A stretch of DNA of 64,000 nucleotides from contig JANYKG010000017.1 of assembly GCA_025358205.1 (NCBI GenBank), forward strand, positions 1-64,000, read 5' to 3'. Positions 27,486 to 45,175 of this stretch are shown piece after piece. The stretch is from Armatimonadota bacterium (lineage in GTDB: Bacteria; Armatimonadota; UBA5829; DTJY01). The notes below the pieces were generated by a model. It did not search any database. It worked only from the letters and a program-made list of their open reading frames with translations, and was not told the DNA's origin. Positions within the stretch are counted from its first letter, which is position 1; the number at the start of each line of letters is the position of its first letter. A program made the translations under genes and the position numbers.

Positions 27486-27559
27486 AATGGCTGATGGCTC
27501 ATGGTCAACGAATAGCGGGCAATTGCCCAAACAACATCAACCATCAACCACCAGCCATA
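27486..27559. repeat. short inverted repeat with ATGGCTGATGG ends
   Basis: ATGGCTGATGGCTCATGG and, inverted, CCATCAACCACCAGCCAT flank about 35 nt. The wording matches the ends of the cassette at 43440-44091 (AATGGCTAATGG), so it may be a coding-free relative. It lies between the 6S candidate and rarA. Confidence 0.5.
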
Positions 27560-27564
27560 AAAAT

Positions 27565-28527: not shown

Positions 28528-28559
28528 AAGGCAAACCCGCGCACAGCATTCGAGACATT

Positions 28560-28660
28560 AGATTCTCAGATATCAGATATCAGATTTGGGATCTCAGATT
28601 TGAAATCTCAAATTCCGATCCGCGGCCCCCAATCCGAGATCCGCAATCCGAACTCCGCAC
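28560..28660. repeat. simple and palindromic AGATATCAGAT/ATCTCA-type repeat
   Basis: The gap after aspS is filled by short units (CAGATATCAGATATCAGAT, then AGATTTGAAATCT, then CCGATCC/ATCCGAGATCC variants). It is of low complexity and contains no gene. Confidence 0.6.
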
Positions 28661-28663
28661 TTG

Positions 28664-30451
28664 TCACACCATCCGCACGTCGGAGGCCTTGCCTTCGCGC
28701 AGCTTGATGTGCAGTTCGGTGAGCTGCTCTTCAGTTACCTGTGACGGCGCCTCGGTCATCGGGTCAACCGCGGTCGCGGTCTTCGGGAACGCGATTACCT
28801 CGCGGATGTTGTCGTCATCGGTCAGCAGCATCACAAGACGGTCTATTCCGGGAGCGATTCCACCGTGCGGCGGCGCGCCGAACTCAAACGCCTCAAGCAG
28901 GTGGCCGAACCGCGCCTGCTGCTCTTCCGGGGAGTGGGCCAGCAGGTCGAATATCTTCGACTGGATGTCGCGTCTGTGAATCCTGACGCTTCCGCTCGCG
29001 CACTCGCTTCCGTTGCAGGCCAGGTCGTAGGCATTCGAGCGGCATGCGCCCGGGTCGGTCTCCAGCAGCGCGATGTCCTCTTCAAGAGGCATGGTGAACG
29101 GGTGATGCTCGGAGTCCCACCGCTTGCCTTCTTCGTCCCACTTGAACATCGGGAAGTCCACAATCCACGCAAAGTAGAGCATGTTCGGGTCGCGCAGACC
29201 GAGCTTGTCGCCGATCTCAAGCCGCAGTCGCGAGAGTGTGTTCGCCACTGTCTTGGCGTCGTCGGCCACGATCATGACCATGTCGCCAACCTTCGCGCCA
29301 GCCTTCTCTACAATCGCGCCAACCACGTCTTCTATGTACTTCAGGCTCGGGGACTTGATGCCTTCCTCGGTGATTTGAATGGTCACCAGACCCTTGCCGC
29401 CGAAGGTCTTGGACAGCTCGATCAGGTCATCTACCTGCTTCCGGCTGTAGGACGCCATGCCGGGGCCGAGCAGCGCCTTGATCTCGCCGCCCTTCGCAAG
29501 CGTGTTCTTGAATACCTGGAACTCGCTGCCTTCCACCACGTCGGCCAGGTTCACCAGTTCGAGGCCGAAGCGCATGTCCGGCTTGTCGGAGCCGAATCGT
29601 TCCATTGAGTCTGCATATGTCAGTTTCGGGAACGGCTTCACGCACTTTTTGGCGCTGAGCTTCTCGACGATCTCGATGAACAACTCCTCAACCAAGTCGA
29701 GGATGTCGTCTCGCTTGACGAACGACATCTCAACGTCGAGCTGTGTGAACTCCGGCTGGCGGTCGGCTCGCGGGTCCTCGTCGCGGAAGCACTTGGCGAT
29801 CTGGAAATACCGCTCGATGCCTGCCACCATCAGAAGCTGCTTGAGCTGCTGGGGCGACTGAGGCAGCGCGTAGAAATGGCCGGGGTAAAGTCGGCTCGGC
29901 ACCAAGTAGTCGCGTGCGCCTTCCGGGGTGCTCTTGATCAGGATGGGCGTCTCGACCTCAATGAACTCGCGTGCGTCAAAGAAGTCGCGCATCAGCTTGA
30001 TCAGCTTGTGCCGAAGTACCAGCTTCTCTTGCATCACGGGGCGGCGCAGGTCGAGATACCGATACTTCAAGCGGATAAGCTCGTCCACATCAACCTGGTC
30101 GGAGATGGGGAAGGGCGGTGTCTTGGCGGTGTTCAGCACGACGATGCTCTCGGTCGCGATCTCGATCTCGCCGGTCTTCAGCTTCGGGTTCTCAGTGCCT
30201 TCCGGCCGCTTGCGAACCGTGCCGCGAATACTGAGCACGAACTCACTGCGCACGTCTTCGGCAGCCTTGTGGGCTTCCGCTGCCACGGCGGGGTCAACCA
30301 CGACCTGCACGGTGCCCCAGCGGTCGCGGAGGTCAATGAAGATCAAGTTGCCGTGGTCGCGTCTGCGCTGCACCCATCCGTTCAGCGTGATCTCAGTTCC
30401 TATTTCCTTAGCGGTTACTTCACCGCACTTATGAGTTCGTCTCCAGTCCAT
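28664..30451 (-). CDS. aspS: aspartyl-tRNA synthetase
   Basis: 595 aa, the size of bacterial AspRS. An N-terminal OB-fold anticodon-binding domain (about 1-105, with [15 protein letters not shown]) is followed by the class II catalytic core. Motif 2 is [18 protein letters not shown] and motif 3 is [17 protein letters not shown] insertion domain sits at about 290-400. Whether it is discriminating or charges tRNA-Asn too cannot be told. It is 144 nt downstream of hisS, and the two are probably one unit as in Bacillus. GAGGGGC precedes the ATG. Confidence 0.96.
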
Positions 30452-31910: not shown

Positions 31911-32083
31911 ACTTGGCATGGTTTTCTCAGACAGGCGAAGGGAAATCTAACAGGATAAGCAGGATGTGGAGGATCAGAGTGGGAAGCGAACATCCAACAT
32001 CCATCCGCCGCGGCGGACGAACTCCCAACATCGAACACAGCACCCGAAACCCGGAACCTGGCACCGGGAACCTCGCACCCGCC

Positions 32084-32905
32084 CTACGACAACTTGATGC
32101 CCGTCCGCTCGAACTCGGTGCGGATGGCTTCTCGGAGTGCGGAGACAACCGCGTCCTGTCTGCCTGGTCTGACCTCCCCGATCACGCGGATGGTGACGCT
32201 GGCCGCGTTCATCGCTGAGATTCCGTCCGCTCTGGGTGGGCTGACCATGCCTTCGACATCCTTGGAAATGCTGTCCGCCGCGCTGTTGATGGCCGCGCGC
32301 ACCTTCTCCAGGTCTGAGTCTGCCGCCACGCTTACGTCCAGCACGGACTGAACTGCCCCTCGGCTGTGGTTGGTTACCATCGTGATGTCGCCGTTTGCGA
32401 TGATAACCAGCTTGCCAACGTCGTCGCGGAGTTGGGTCACTCGCATGCCCAGTTCCTCAACCGTTCCCGTAACCGCGCCGATGGTCACATACTCGCCAAC
32501 CGAATACTGGTGTTCCAGCACGATGAAGAAGCCGGAGATGATGTCGCGAACGAGTTTCTGCGCGCCGAACCCAACCGCCAGGCCGACCACGCCGGCGGCC
32601 GTCAGCACCGGGGCGGCGTCTATATCAAAGACCCGCAGGACCATGATGCCTGAGATGAAGATCAGTACGTAGAACACCGTGCTCTTTATCAGACTGCCCA
32701 ACGTCTTGATCCGCCCTGTAACGGATGCCCCGTCGTCCTGCCGCTTGATGACCGTGGCCATGATCCTGTTCGTCAGCCGGTTTGCGATGAACCTCACGAG
32801 CAGGAAGAAGATGATGATCTTCACAATCGCCCATATCTTGAAGACGGCGATAGTCAGTCCGCCGATGTGTACACTTCCAAGGTCGTTTAGCCAGTTGATG
32901 TTCAT
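32084..32905 (-). CDS. small-conductance mechanosensitive channel (MscS family)
   Basis: About 273 aa, close to E. coli MscS (286). Three membrane helices lie in the first 110 residues. The pore-lining TM3 reads LTAAGVVGLAVGFGAQKLVRDIISGFFI. The beta domain that follows has YSVGEYVTI and the NGDITMVTNHSRG region. It releases osmolytes when turgor rises. The ATG at 32905 follows AAGGGG at good spacing; an upstream in-frame start is less supported. The 178 nt between it and hisS contain repeat-like text (CCGGAACCTGGCACCGGGAA) and no gene. Confidence 0.93.
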   Translation of the reverse strand: MNINWLNDLGSVHIGGLTIAVFKIWAIVKIIIFFLLVRFIANRLTNRIMATVIKRQDDGASVTGRIKTLGSLIKSTVFYVLIFISGIMVLRVFDIDAAPVLTAAGVVGLAVGFGAQKLVRDIISGFFIVLEHQYSVGEYVTIGAVTGTVEELGMRVTQLRDDVGKLVIIANGDITMVTNHSRGAVQSVLDVSVAADSDLEKVRAAINSAADSISKDVEGMVSPPRADGISAMNAASVTIRVIGEVRPGRQDAVVSALREAIRTEFERTGIKLS

Positions 32906-37962: not shown

Positions 37963-39816
37963 GTGCTCGATATCGGAGGTGAAAGTCCTCTACGGTAAAG
38001 GGAGTGAGAACCGTTAAGCGGAGGCAAGGGCGTCACCGTGAGGTGGGGTCTGAAAGAAGCCCGAGCCACAGTCACGACCTGACGAACAGAAACCGGATAG
38101 TAGGCCACAGGCGGTGGGTGAGCTGGCATGAGACGGTGAAACCCTCAACTCCCAAGACCGGCCTGTGGTAAATTCGGCAGGAGCGGGGCGAAAGATCGAG
38201 CGCTTATCCCGGGAGATCTGTCACTCTGTCCGCGTGAGGCGGACTATGCCAGCAGCAATGCAGACAAAAGGAGTGACAGAAGTCAGCAGAGGCCATAGTA
38301 TCCGCGTGATGCGGAGAAGGGCCGAACACGAAGACACAAGGAATCGCCGGAGGAATCGAGGCCGTGGCGGAGCAGAATATCGGACAACCGGCTTTCGACT
38401 ACGATGAGGCGGGTGAAGCCCGGCCTGGGCGTAGTGAAGGGCATCAAGCGGCATCGGCGTCCCCCGAGACGAGAACCTTGGCGCAGAGCCTCATGGAGGC
38501 AGTAGTAGATGCGCGGAACATGCGCGCAGCCCTGAAACGAGTCAGAGAGAACAAGGGAAGCCCAGGAGTAGACGGGGTGACCGTGGATAAGCTCCCGGAG
38601 TACCTTATGGAACACTGGCAGAGAATAAGGGCAGAACTGCTTGATGGTAAGTACAAACCCCAGCCTGTAAGGCGGGTGGAGATACCGAAGCCGGACGGCG
38701 GAGTGCGACAATTGGGCATTCCGACCGTAATGGATAGGTTGATCCAGCAGGCAGTGCTACAGGTACTTGGGCCACTCTACGCCCCCACCTTCTCGGAATC
38801 GAGCTATGGATTCAGACCCGGCAGAAGTGCCCACCAGGCGGTGAGAGCCGCGAGAGAGCACGTAGCGAGCGGAAAGGAATGGGTAGTAGACCTAGACATC
38901 GAGAAGTTCTTCGACCGCGTGAACCACGATATCCTGATGGGCCGTTTAGCACGGCGCATAGGGGATAAGCGTGTGCTAAGGCTGATTCGCGCATATCTGA
39001 ATGCAGGGATCATGGCAGACGGAGTGGTGATAGAGCGGCACGAAGGCACACCACAGGGAGGGCCACTCTCACCGTTACTTGCCAACATACTCCTTGACGA
39101 GTTCGACAAGGAGTTGGAGAAGCGAGGGCACAGGTTCGTAAGATATGCAGATGATTGCAACATCTACGTAGCCACAGAGCGTGCAGGTGAGAGAGTAATG
39201 AAATCGCTCACGCAGTTCCTGGAGAAGAAACTCAGGCTGAAGGTGAACAAGGAGAAATCCGGGGTAGCCAAGCCGAGGGAGCGGAAGTTTCTGGGATTGC
39301 GGATAGTGAAAGGGAAAGAAGCGTTCATAAGCATCGCGCCCAAATCGCTTGAGCGATTCAAGAAGGCAGTGCGGCGTATCACAAAGCGAAACCGAGGAAG
39401 GAGCCTGACCCATGTGATAACGGAACTAAATCGTTACACGACGGGATGGGTGAACTACTTCGGGATTGCAGATGCCAAATCCATCATGCAAAAGCTGGAT
39501 GGATGGATACGCCGTAGACTGAGGTGCTTGATCTGGAAGCAGTGGAAAGGATGGCAAACTCGGGCACATAATCTCCTGAAGGCAGGAGTAGGCCCGTGGC
39601 TGGCCTATGGCATCGTCTCCGGGAAGCATGGGCCGTGGAACGTTGCCGGAAGCCCTGCCATGACGAAAGCCATCACGAATGCGTACCTGAAGCAGCAAGG
39701 CTACAAGAGTCTCTATGAGCGTTACATGACGCTCGCGTCTTCGTGAACCGCCGGATGCGGACCCGCATGTCCGGTGGTGTGGGGGGAGGAGCCGGTGACG
39801 ACTCCTCCTACCCGAT
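37963..39816 (+). mobile_element. group II intron, likely class IIC-like
   Basis: The proposed 5' end is GTGCTCG at 37963, followed by domain I text GGAGGTGAAAGTCCTCT. The 3' end is at TACCCGAT near 39816. Domain V is seen near 39741-39778 (GAACCGCCGGATGCGG, then CCGCATGTCCGGTGGT). Domain VI is the following GGAGGAGccggtgacgACTCCTCC hairpin. The coded protein has RT and maturase parts but no HNH endonuclease. Insertion just after an intrinsic terminator is the known habit of IIC introns. The ends are inferred from motifs. Confidence 0.8.
38364..39746 (+). CDS. ltrA: group II intron reverse transcriptase/maturase
   Basis: 460 aa. RT domains 0-7 run from about 55 to 300, with GSPGVDG, YGFRPGRSAHQA, VVDLDIEKFFD, GTPQGGPLSPLLANI, the catalytic RYADD (about residue 265) and FLGL. 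A maturase domain X (about 330-400, GWVNYFG) and a C-terminal segment (RGPW-like HGPWNVAGSPAM) follow. No endonuclease domain is present, consistent with priming from the replication fork. The GTG start at 38364 lies after AGGA. It reads without frameshift and looks intact. Confidence 0.93.
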   Translation: MAEQNIGQPAFDYDEAGEARPGRSEGHQAASASPETRTLAQSLMEAVVDARNMRAALKRVRENKGSPGVDGVTVDKLPEYLMEHWQRIRAELLDGKYKPQPVRRVEIPKPDGGVRQLGIPTVMDRLIQQAVLQVLGPLYAPTFSESSYGFRPGRSAHQAVRAAREHVASGKEWVVDLDIEKFFDRVNHDILMGRLARRIGDKRVLRLIRAYLNAGIMADGVVIERHEGTPQGGPLSPLLANILLDEFDKELEKRGHRFVRYADDCNIYVATERAGERVMKSLTQFLEKKLRLKVNKEKSGVAKPRERKFLGLRIVKGKEAFISIAPKSLERFKKAVRRITKRNRGRSLTHVITELNRYTTGWVNYFGIADAKSIMQKLDGWIRRRLRCLIWKQWKGWQTRAHNLLKAGVGPWLAYGIVSGKHGPWNVAGSPAMTKAITNAYLKQQGYKSLYERYMTLASS

Positions 39817-42291: not shown

Positions 42292-42801
42292 TTGGCGGAC
42301 CAGCACACTACTCTCAGGATACTCGGCGTTGATCCGGGACTGAACATCAGCGGGTATGGGCTGATAGATGTCCTGAGGGGCCAGCCGTCGCTGATCGAGG
42401 CAGGGGTCATCCGCATCCCGGCCAGGCGTCCGCTGGAGCAGAGGCTGTCCACGCTCTTTCACGGAATCCAGGAGTTGATGCAGGAGTTCAAGCCCGGCGC
42501 GCTCGCATTGGAAGAGGTCTACACACACTATGAGCGCCCCAGGGTGGCGGTGATGATGGGCCATGCGCGCGGCGTTATCTGCCTGGCTGCGGCGGTCAAC
42601 CAGGTTCCGGTGTTCAGCTATGCTCCCACGCATATCAAGAGTTCGCTAACCGGCAACGGGCGTGCGAGCAAGGAGCAGGTCAGGCGAATGGTGGAGGTCA
42701 CCCTGCGCCTGAAGAAGTGCCCGGAACCGTTGGACGTATCGGATGCGCTGGCAGCGGCTTTGTGCCACATCTCCAGAACCGGCAGGGAGGGTTTGATTTG
42801 A
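42292..42801 (+). CDS. ruvC: Holliday junction resolvase RuvC
   Basis: 169 aa. The catalytic acidic residues are visible in GVDPGL, ALEEVY and DVSDALAAALCH. Together with RuvA and RuvB it resolves Holliday junctions. The start is TTG at 42292 with GGAG six nt upstream. Its TGA overlaps the ruvA start (TTGA). Confidence 0.95.
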   Translation: MADQHTTLRILGVDPGLNISGYGLIDVLRGQPSLIEAGVIRIPARRPLEQRLSTLFHGIQELMQEFKPGALALEEVYTHYERPRVAVMMGHARGVICLAAAVNQVPVFSYAPTHIKSSLTGNGRASKEQVRRMVEVTLRLKKCPEPLDVSDALAAALCHISRTGREGLI

Positions 42802-43430
42802 TTTCATTTCTGCAGGGCAGTCTAACCATAGCCAGCGACTCCGAGGTCATCATCTGGGCGAACGGCATCGGCTATCAGATCATGGTGCCTGCCACAGTCA
42901 TGCATACCCTCCAGAAAAAGTCCGAGGACGAGTGTCGCGACGTTCGTCTCATCACGTTTCACTACCTGGAGAACAACCAGTCGCGAATCGTGCCGAGGCT
43001 GATTGGGTTCAACAACGAGATCGAGCGCGAGTTCTTCGAGCTGTTCATTACAGTGGCCGACCTGGGACCGAAGACCGCTGTTCGCGCGCTGTCGAAGGCG
43101 TTCCACTCCATCGCCGAGTCAATAGAGCAGGGAAACCACAAGGAACTGACCGCGCTGCCCGGCATCGGCGATAAGAAGGCGCGGCAGATAGTGGCCACGC
43201 TCCAGGGCAAGGCCGGGAAGTTCGCCATGCTGCAGGACGAGGAGATATCATCTTCGCCGCAGCCGAAGGAGGACATCCAGACCGACGCTATCGAAGTATT
43301 GCTTCAACTGGGTTACAGGCGCAGCGAGGCGCAGGCGATGGTTACCAGCGCCGTGGAGTCCACGTCCCCTAGGCCGAAGACGTCCGAAGAACTGATACAG
43401 AAGATATACGAACTGAAGCTTATGAAGTAG
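42798..43430 (+). CDS. ruvA: Holliday junction branch-migration protein RuvA
   Basis: About 210 aa. An N-terminal OB fold (about 1-70) begins at ISFLQGSLTIA. A helix-hairpin-helix domain shows LPGIGDKKARQIV (and the first HhH as ADLGPKTAVRAL). The C-terminal RuvB-binding domain (about 165-208) reads EVLLQLGYRRSEAQAMV. The start is TTG at 42798, overlapping ruvC by 4 nt, after AGGGAGG. ruvB is not adjacent: a cassette lies between them. Confidence 0.95.
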   Translation: MISFLQGSLTIASDSEVIIWANGIGYQIMVPATVMHTLQKKSEDECRDVRLITFHYLENNQSRIVPRLIGFNNEIEREFFELFITVADLGPKTAVRALSKAFHSIAESIEQGNHKELTALPGIGDKKARQIVATLQGKAGKFAMLQDEEISSSPQPKEDIQTDAIEVLLQLGYRRSEAQAMVTSAVESTSPRPKTSEELIQKIYELKLMK

Positions 43431-43439
43431 AGCGCAAAG

Positions 43440-44091
43440 AATGGCTAATGGCTGGCCCGCCGAGAGCGGGAATGGACGATGGCTCACGGACAATGGCTGA
43501 TTGCTGTTGGAGGATGGACGATGGAGAGAATTCGGGACGTGGAGCAGATGCCGATTCATCGGTTGTTCGAGGATCTGGCATTCCGAGTAGAGGAATCGAC
43601 TCGGCGTTTTGGACCGGAGTTCCGGTGGCTCCGTGTTCAGGTTCTTCGTTCATCCGAATCGGTGTGTGCCAATCTTGCCGAGGGGTTTTACGCCCAGTAC
43701 AGCACGGAGTATGCTCAATCTTTGCATCGTTGTCGCCGTGAAGCCCGCGAGTCCATAGCTCATATTCGCTATGCGAAGGGAGTCGGGCAGCTTGACGAGA
43801 CCTTGAGTGATTCTATCATCTCCTCGTATGTGAGCGCTCTTGTGCAACTAGCCAGATTGATCTCCGCCATAGAGAAAAAGATAATCGAGAGAGGGAAGGG
43901 CAAAGACCTGTCCTGCATAGTCAGAGAAGAACCTTGCGAATATGAGGTGGATTCGTGTGAGTATGCTTAGCCGACTGTGCCGGAGCGTTCCGGTCATCCA
44001 TTGCCCATCAGCCATGGATTCCCAGCCATTCCGGCTAGCCATAAGCCATTTTCCCTAAGCCATTCCGGCTAGCCATTGTCCATTAGCCATT
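43440..44091 (+). mobile_element. inverted-repeat cassette carrying a four-helix-bundle (S23/IVS) gene
   Basis: Both sides of the inner gene are built of the same short words. The left side starts with AATGGCTAATGG (43440-43451) and the right side ends with its exact inverse CCATTAGCCATT (44080-44091). Several degenerate AGCCATT units lie within 43981-44079. It looks like a small mobile or mobilised unit between ruvA and ruvB. Confidence 0.6.
43521..43970 (+). CDS. four helix bundle protein (S23 ribosomal/IVS family)
   Basis: About 149 aa, the size of TIGR02436 four-helix-bundle proteins coded by 23S rRNA intervening sequences and of the related Avd fold. The family pattern is visible: FEDLAFRVEE, LRVQVLRSSESVCANLAEGF and Y.QSLHRCRREARES. 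A Cys/Glu-rich tail (CIVREEPCEYEVDSCEYA) is extra. The ATG at 43521 follows GGAGG. The cellular role is unknown. The flanking inverted words and the break in ruvCAB suggest that it travels with the cassette. Confidence 0.85.
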   Translation: MERIRDVEQMPIHRLFEDLAFRVEESTRRFGPEFRWLRVQVLRSSESVCANLAEGFYAQYSTEYAQSLHRCRREARESIAHIRYAKGVGQLDETLSDSIISSYVSALVQLARLISAIEKKIIERGKGKDLSCIVREEPCEYEVDSCEYA

Positions 44092-44104
44092 CTCGGAGGT
44101 AGCC

Positions 44105-45175
44105 ATGTCCCGAGACAAGATAATATCAGGCGACGATGCAGATGAAACCCCGGTTCGTGAGGCCGTCGTGAGTTCGGCGCTGGACCCGGAAGAGGATCGT
44201 CAGCAATGGAATCTGCGGCCGAAGACCCTGTCTGAGTACATCGGCCAGACCACTGTCGTCGAGAGCCTGAACATCGCCATCACCGCCGCGACCAACAGGC
44301 GCGAGCCGTTGGAACACGTCCTCCTGCACGGCTCGCCCGGCCTCGGCAAAACCACCCTCGCGCATATCATCGCAACCGCCATGGGCGCAAACATCATCGC
44401 CACGTCCGGCCCGGCAATCGAGAAACCCAAGGACGTCATGGGGATCCTCTCAAGCCTGGAGGTCGGCGATGTGCTCTTCATAGACGAGATTCACCGCCTC
44501 TCGCGCGTGGTGGAGGAGTTCCTCTACTCCGCCATGGAGGATTTCCAGGTGGACTTCGTGCTGGACCGGGGTGCGTATGCAAAGACCATAAAGGTGCCAC
44601 TCAAGCGGTTCACACTGGTCGGCGCCACCACCCGCGCGGGGATGCTCTCGGCGCCTCTGCGCGACCGGTTCGGCATATTCACGCACATGGACTACTATGA
44701 AACTGAGGAACTCAAGCGCATCGTCCAGCGGTCCGCGGGCATCCTGAGCGTGAAGATTGACCCCAAGGGAGCTGAGGAGATCGCCCGCCGATCACGAGGC
44801 ACACCCCGGATAGCCAACCGCCTGCTCCGCCGAGTTAGGGACTACGCGGAAGTGGAATCGGACGGCACAATCACCCGTGAGCTTGCGGACATCGCGCTGA
44901 AGCGTGAGATGGTTGATGAAATGGGGTTGGACAAGCTCGACCGAGCGTTCCTCCGCACGATCATAGAGTTCTACGACGGCGGACCGGTCGGCATTGAGGC
45001 GCTCTCCGCGACCCTGAACGAGGAGACGGATACGCTTGTGGACATGGTGGAGCCGTACCTGCTGAAGATTGGGTTCCTCAACCGCACGCCCAGCGGCCGC
45101 AAAGCCACCCGCACCGCTTGCGAGCACCTGGGCATGAACACCGCCAAGCGCAAGCAGGGGCAGCTTCCACTCTAA
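44105..45175 (+). CDS. ruvB: Holliday junction branch-migration ATPase RuvB
   Basis: 356 aa. Walker A is GSPGLGKTT, Walker B is LFIDEIHRL, sensor 1 is GATTRAG, and the arginine finger region is LRDRFGI. The C-terminal winged helix (about 270-345) has [13 protein letters not shown] precedes the ATG, directly after the cassette's right end. Its last 4 nt overlap the convergent ywbE-like gene. Confidence 0.96.

Follow-up and report, generated by a model that had tools for sequence, protein, structure and literature searches.

Among described systems, the closest are the 23S rRNA IVSs with an S23/IVP ORF of Leptospira, Coxiella and Brucella (PMC4990558), which have complementary ends closing a stem around the ORF and a sporadic distribution. 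Pentameric structures of the S23/IVP protein have been solved, and no function is known for it. Its fold is shared by Avd of diversity-generating retroelements (DGRs). Short palindromic, gene-less multicopy units that share a genome with a related gene-bearing unit are known as MITEs and REP/RAYT. In addition, heptamer repeats of cyanobacteria, Xanthomonas and Beggiatoaceae have repeatedly been described as over-represented and unexplained. They are intergenic, have a 7-nt unit and frequently form inverted pairs (70 cases in Xcc); the cyanobacterial STRRs were reportedly described in 1990. Orphan heptamers of this kind are TAACTGA (PMC4679880) as well as GGGAATC and GGGGA(C/T)T of Xanthomonas and Nostoc (PMC4692102); both papers treat the repeats alone and leave the S23/four-helix-bundle gene unmentioned. 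In the literature, of which most subscription papers were out of reach, we found no paper joining heptamer repeats to the S23/IVP protein, and priority is uncertain.

In this study, a 64,000-nt stretch of an Armatimonadota contig (the window) was analysed, in which the gap between ruvA and ruvB holds a 652-bp unit (43440-44091), a PF05635 four-helix-bundle gene flanked by inverted heptamer arrays (Table 1). The preliminary description had reported perfect 12-nt inverted ends and an S23/IVS gene splitting ruvA from ruvB, and this was exact. It had also listed degenerate AGCCATT words beside the inverted ends; both are present, but they are not separate features and together make up one tandem heptamer array per side. 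The arm units are degenerate heptamers (ATGGNNN upstream, NNNCCAT downstream), and the 12-nt ends are the outermost units of the two longer arms. A short GC-rich stretch interrupts the upstream arm, which contains the SD and the start codon of the four-helix-bundle gene. The GGAGG (44095-44099) and ATG of ruvB fall beyond the right end of the cassette.

Table 1. Coordinates of the ruvA-ruvB cassette, its host genes and gene-less arrays in the window.
Feature	Position	Strand	Basis
ruvA, host gene, left neighbour	42798..43430	+	ORF and profile search; stop 9 nt before cassette
Left perfect 12-nt end, AATGGCTAATGG	43440..43451	+	Sequence and motif search
Upstream arm, degenerate heptamers (ATGGCTA, ATGGACG, ATGGCTC, ATGGACA and others)	43440..43527	+	Sequence; lag-7 array at 43484-43527
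Four-helix-bundle gene (23S rRNA-IVP/S23 family), 149 aa	43521..43970	+	PF05635, TIGR02436, AlphaFold2, Foldseek
Downstream arm, inverted heptamers (TAGCCAT type)	43995..44091	-	Sequence; pairs with upstream arm in predicted RNA fold
Right perfect 12-nt end, exact inverse of left	44080..44091	-	Sequence and motif search
ruvB, host gene, right neighbour	44105..45175	+	ORF and profile search
Gene-less inverted array with the cassette's word (ATGGCTGATGGCTCATGG ... CCATCAACCACCAGCCAT)	27486..27560		Motif search, array scan
Gene-less heptamer array with the word of cassette L016 of this genome (ATCTCAG/ATCTCAA type)	28551..28669		Array scan, word comparison
Gene-less heptamer array, ACCCGAA/GAACCTG type	32017..32085		Array scan

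At up to two mismatches, the left end has 11 matches in the window against 3.2 expected, and seven of the 11 lie within the cassette. ATGG occurs seven times in 43430-43530 and CCAT ten times in 43970-44105, with a window background of 0.47 ATGG per 100 nt. The inverted arm-to-arm alignment scores 26, a value reached by 5 of 2000 random placements at equal spacing, and the predicted RNA of the unit closes on its own arms (z -4.4). Thus, like the 23S rRNA IVSs, the unit has an S23/IVP ORF and complementary ends that close a stem. Unlike them, it lies in a protein-coding operon outside an rRNA gene, and each of its arms is a word-specific heptamer array for which the genome also contains gene-less relatives. 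A 23S rRNA gene on plasmid AZO_p2 of Azospirillum lipoferum is interrupted by a PF05635 ORF, whose stem is a heptamer array of the type described here (GAGGACGGATGACAGAGGACGGAGGACAG and its inverse); therefore, classical IVSs and intergenic cassettes look like one element family. The cassettes are unmatched in Rfam, where matches were limited to the rRNA and tRNA genes of one locus (L127). As in DNA transposons and MITEs, terminal inverted repeats are present, but the ORF list and profile search place no transposase in the cassette, of which the four-helix-bundle ORF is the sole ORF; nor does the unit contain a Y1 (HUH) transposase gene flanked by its palindromes, as REP/RAYT would. It further differs from both in its tandem-heptamer ends and in words that vary among the units of one genome. 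No target site duplication was seen at 43440/44091. In contrast to Avd of DGRs, no RT, template or variable repeat adjoins the cassette. The nearest RT is a group II intron-type ORF of 460 aa (38364-39746), about 4 kb upstream, which seems unrelated to the cassette.

The cassette protein matches PF05635 (E 1e-11, 45.4 bits; cut-off 33.8) and TIGR02436 (E 3e-12). As read from the sequence, the likely start is the ATG at 43521, within the upstream array and with GGAGG 8 nt upstream, and the stop is at 43968-43970; an alternative start lies further upstream (43479). With an alignment of relatives, AlphaFold2 gave a confident four-helix model (mean pLDDT 87). The closest solved structures in Foldseek are XCC0516 (2GSC) and BT_0352 (2RLD), with five chains each, followed by Avd of DGRs (4DWL, 8UB7); XCC0516 is described as a homopentamer (Lin et al., 2006, cited in PMC4990558). 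PADLOC gave no match of note to a defence system, and a search of a phage collection gave no match; a defence role and a phage origin were accordingly discarded.

Three genomes of the same family have ruvA and ruvB about 79, 11 and 11 nt apart without the four-helix-bundle gene, these genomes being too distantly related to give base-exact borders, and in a fourth relative a different gene lies upstream of ruvB. The empty junction that the preliminary description had proposed to look for is therefore found. In the 79-nt gap (L024) there is a degenerate repeat resembling ATGTCAA, which may represent a gene-less remnant. PF05635 was absent from the ruvB locus in the 40 relatives searched, so the gene was not found fixed at ruvA-ruvB without inverted ends in distant relatives, the case that would speak against a mobile unit; at other operon sites, fixed copies that do have ends are common. 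Within the Armatimonadota genome there are 13 PF05635 genes, and the majority of the short ones are flanked by an inverted array pair, the word differing from pair to pair. Other copies of the same ends do occur, the perfect 12-mer being present ten times in this genome, but the others that were inspected lie in gene-less arrays. Its own cassette words match the gene-less arrays of this genome better than do the cassettes of other genomes (median 22.5 vs 16.5, p 0.003). A gene-less ATGG hairpin array also lies between an apparent groES and groEL in this genome (L008, about 1501-1580 of its locus).

The preliminary description considered a stand-alone cassette unusual; on the contrary, such cassettes are the usual state of the PF05635 family across Bacteria. 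Inverted arms (score of at least 18) accompany 76% of 156 PF05635 genes from about 20 phyla, against 1% of 303 control ORFs of the Armatimonadota genome, the flanks of the 156 genes being taken from the HMM match and hence slightly closer to the gene than the control flanks. About one quarter of PF05635 genes have no detectable arms. For 75 genes of the phylum Armatimonadota, the upstream flank aligned to the reverse-complemented downstream flank with a median of 21, compared with 11.4 for mismatched pairs and 12 in direct orientation. At 80 named loci from about 20 phyla the median inverted-flank score was 19 vs 11.1, and 51 of the 80 were significant. The arrays have a period of 7, occasionally 8, and were detected in 158 of 315 near flanks, lag 7 being the best in 107 of them, vs 7 of 298 flanks 800 nt away. 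Median arm length is 33 nt (IQR 30-40; array borders are fuzzy).

Each lineage's PF05635 cassettes carry their own heptamer word. The word is identical in six of seven protein pairs (86%) at 80% identity or more and in 1-3% of pairs below 60%. At orthologous sites both arms change together (for example GTGGAAA vs GTGGAGA at one site), which could be due to change in place or, alternatively, to replacement by related cassettes. Between nuoC and nuoD of Rhizobiales (L140, L143, L144, L152, L155, L165, L131), the word differs in almost every genus. In an even sample of 369 gammaproteobacterial-type genomes, a search for GGGAATC triplets gave one match, G419, which was then taken as the centre of a family that looks xanthomonad by content. 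Here the gene lies between accB and accC with arms of the GGGAATC type, the orphan heptamer described above. GGGRWTM arrays were present in all five genomes with the accB-accC cassette vs 5 of 21 others. The prediction that the arm word recurs in the genome was borne out by G445, with GGGACTC as the word of its cassette arms: three tandem GGGACTC units matched at 51 places in this genome and the GGGAATC type at none, although the GGGACTC word is shared by three further genomes. Four of 17 genomes have GGGAATC arrays without a detectable gene, and loss or divergence must be assumed there.

Filled and empty sites were found for homologous cassettes. A cassette carried by conjugative plasmids of Trichormus and Scytonema is missing from plasmids of Aulosira, Nostoc carneum and Tolypothrix that are about 97% identical to them. 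At the Trichormus-type site, the empty AAAAAGTAATTAACAA becomes the filled AAAAAGTAAT-[AAATCAG...CTTCTTT]-GTAATTAAC, with GTAAT on both sides as a 5-bp duplication. In two homologous Nostoc plasmid operons, cassettes lie at two different gaps, each gap being empty in the other operon; their proteins are 36% identical and their words different. Cassettes at unrelated sites with 79-85% identical proteins share one common word. Further pairs with and without the cassette are nrdB-nrdA (antisense), cas6-cas4 and cas10-cmr3. Target duplications, for which the preliminary description had also suggested a search, are thus found in one clean 5-bp case, though none is seen at ruvA-ruvB; in the three plasmid cases they measured 5, 3 and 0 bp, which is no fixed length. 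TTCTA at the Nostoc 441|288 site was discarded as a duplication because it also ends the unit at another site (L333).

The ends can also move without the gene. In Nostoc plasmid pNPM1 (L339:717-898), a four-helix-bundle gene that is otherwise near-identical to that of L331 is interrupted by a 182-bp gene-less unit, which has the same word and lacks a target duplication; this indicates movement in trans. This unit has 98 matching places in 43 plasmid records; in one cyanobacterial family, 20 of 30 genomes contain matches to it, many of these genome matches being to the arms alone. It forms a MITE-like family in Nostocales. GATAA follows 10 of 11 inspected copies, and since the GATAAA of L339 was part of the gene before insertion, a preferred target is suggested. 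At L326, an array and the 5' third of a four-helix-bundle gene remain, fused to the next gene. The idea of a small mobile unit moved in trans, as put forward in the preliminary description, thus holds for the homologues, where a discrete unit moves and its ends can do so alone; for the ruvA-ruvB copy, empty in three relatives, movement as a unit would follow by analogy.

Could the arrays be ordinary slippage-prone repeats into which four-helix-bundle genes insert, and thus targets instead of ends? Gene-less arrays are indeed common (23 in a 574-kb sample of the Armatimonadota genome), and at cas6-cas4 another heptamer array is present in the relative that lacks the gene. However, the empty Trichormus-type plasmid sites and Nostoc gaps are array-free, the flanks are inverted and not direct copies, and the words track protein lineage at unrelated sites. 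Pre-existing repeats as targets are therefore rejected where close empty sites exist, and overall we regard this explanation as very unlikely. An Avd-like partnership, in which the unit moves by reverse transcription with the RT supplied in trans, would be in line with the Avd fold, a PHROG Avd match of relatives (E 3e-8) and the sense bias described below. Yet several genomes with 4-9 copies (G006, G008, G016, G017, G024) have no PF00078 match, the RT of the window is group II-type and about 4 kb off, and the gene-less unit is not a transcript-like copy of the gene, which makes this the most improbable of the alternatives.

A domesticated host gene is somewhat easier to imagine, though still improbable. 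The protein would then regulate its own operon via the repeats, as TRAP or ribosomal proteins do, with regulatory arms and incidental mobility. In many genera the gene has persisted at accB-accC and nuoC-nuoD, which agrees with this, as do the sense orientation in 94 of 103 genes between co-oriented neighbours and an upstream arm that runs into the start codon and in 74 of 82 cases is G-rich on the sense strand. It is difficult to reconcile with presence and absence at ruvA-ruvB, with antisense copies (L121, L087, L168), with frameshifted or truncated ones (G419, L326, L339) and with neighbours that are unrelated at nearly every site. At accB-accC and nuoC-nuoD, the long persistence nevertheless leaves room for a host function.

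Taken together, the ruvA-ruvB cassette is probably an intergenic, stand-alone element of the IVS/S23 family that is mobile as a whole and leaves behind arrays of heptamers. Such an element would enter intergenic gaps beside the upstream stop codon, mostly sense-oriented in operons. Its arms, whose pairing is an in silico prediction, could pair with each other once transcribed, like those of 23S rRNA IVSs, and the host genes would stay usable. Decay, or movement of the ends alone, would then give rise to gene-less arrays, as in cyanobacteria. The ring-forming protein may bind its own word, whether in RNA or in single-stranded DNA, and favour the spread of the word. A second protein acting in trans, perhaps a Y1/HUH transposase, would cut and join the strands. 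Y1_Tnp co-occurs with the PF05635 family (20 of 27 vs 4 of 14 genomes, p 0.008; with genome size accounted for, the partial rank correlation is 0.36), and duplication-free insertion next to a constant word would be compatible with a Y1 enzyme, at which these data may hint.

It is tempting to speculate, though doubtful at present, that the element addresses itself: a pentameric ring would read its own single-stranded 7-nt word at about one unit per subunit, word and protein would co-evolve, and movement in trans would write the word across the genome as a main source of bacterial heptamer satellites. Five times 7 is 35 nt, close to the median arm of 33 nt, from which about one heptamer per ring subunit was derived. 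Apart from this, the cassette arrays look like a source of the unexplained bacterial heptamer repeats, which are here joined to the S23/IVP protein. This link makes both protein and repeats testable: each cassette predicts the word that its protein should bind, and a genome's word predicts a cassette, present or past.

The 23S_rRNA_IVP protein was reported as CRISPR-linked (PMC3936711, PMC10910872). These reports may reflect cassettes inserted in cas operons, as at L122 (cas6-cas4) and L332 (cas10-cmr3), gaps that contain no such gene in relatives. Some PF05635 proteins, L020 and L021 among them, are long (>200 aa), have a weak PF05635 domain and lack clear arms; they look like a different, non-mobile branch. 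In Calothrix sp. PCC 7103, seven near-identical four-helix-bundle genes (L278-L284) with GGCAGTA/GGCAGAG heptamers could be taken for a recent burst of self-mobility; this was rejected, as the copies are passengers inside an ISL3-like IS.
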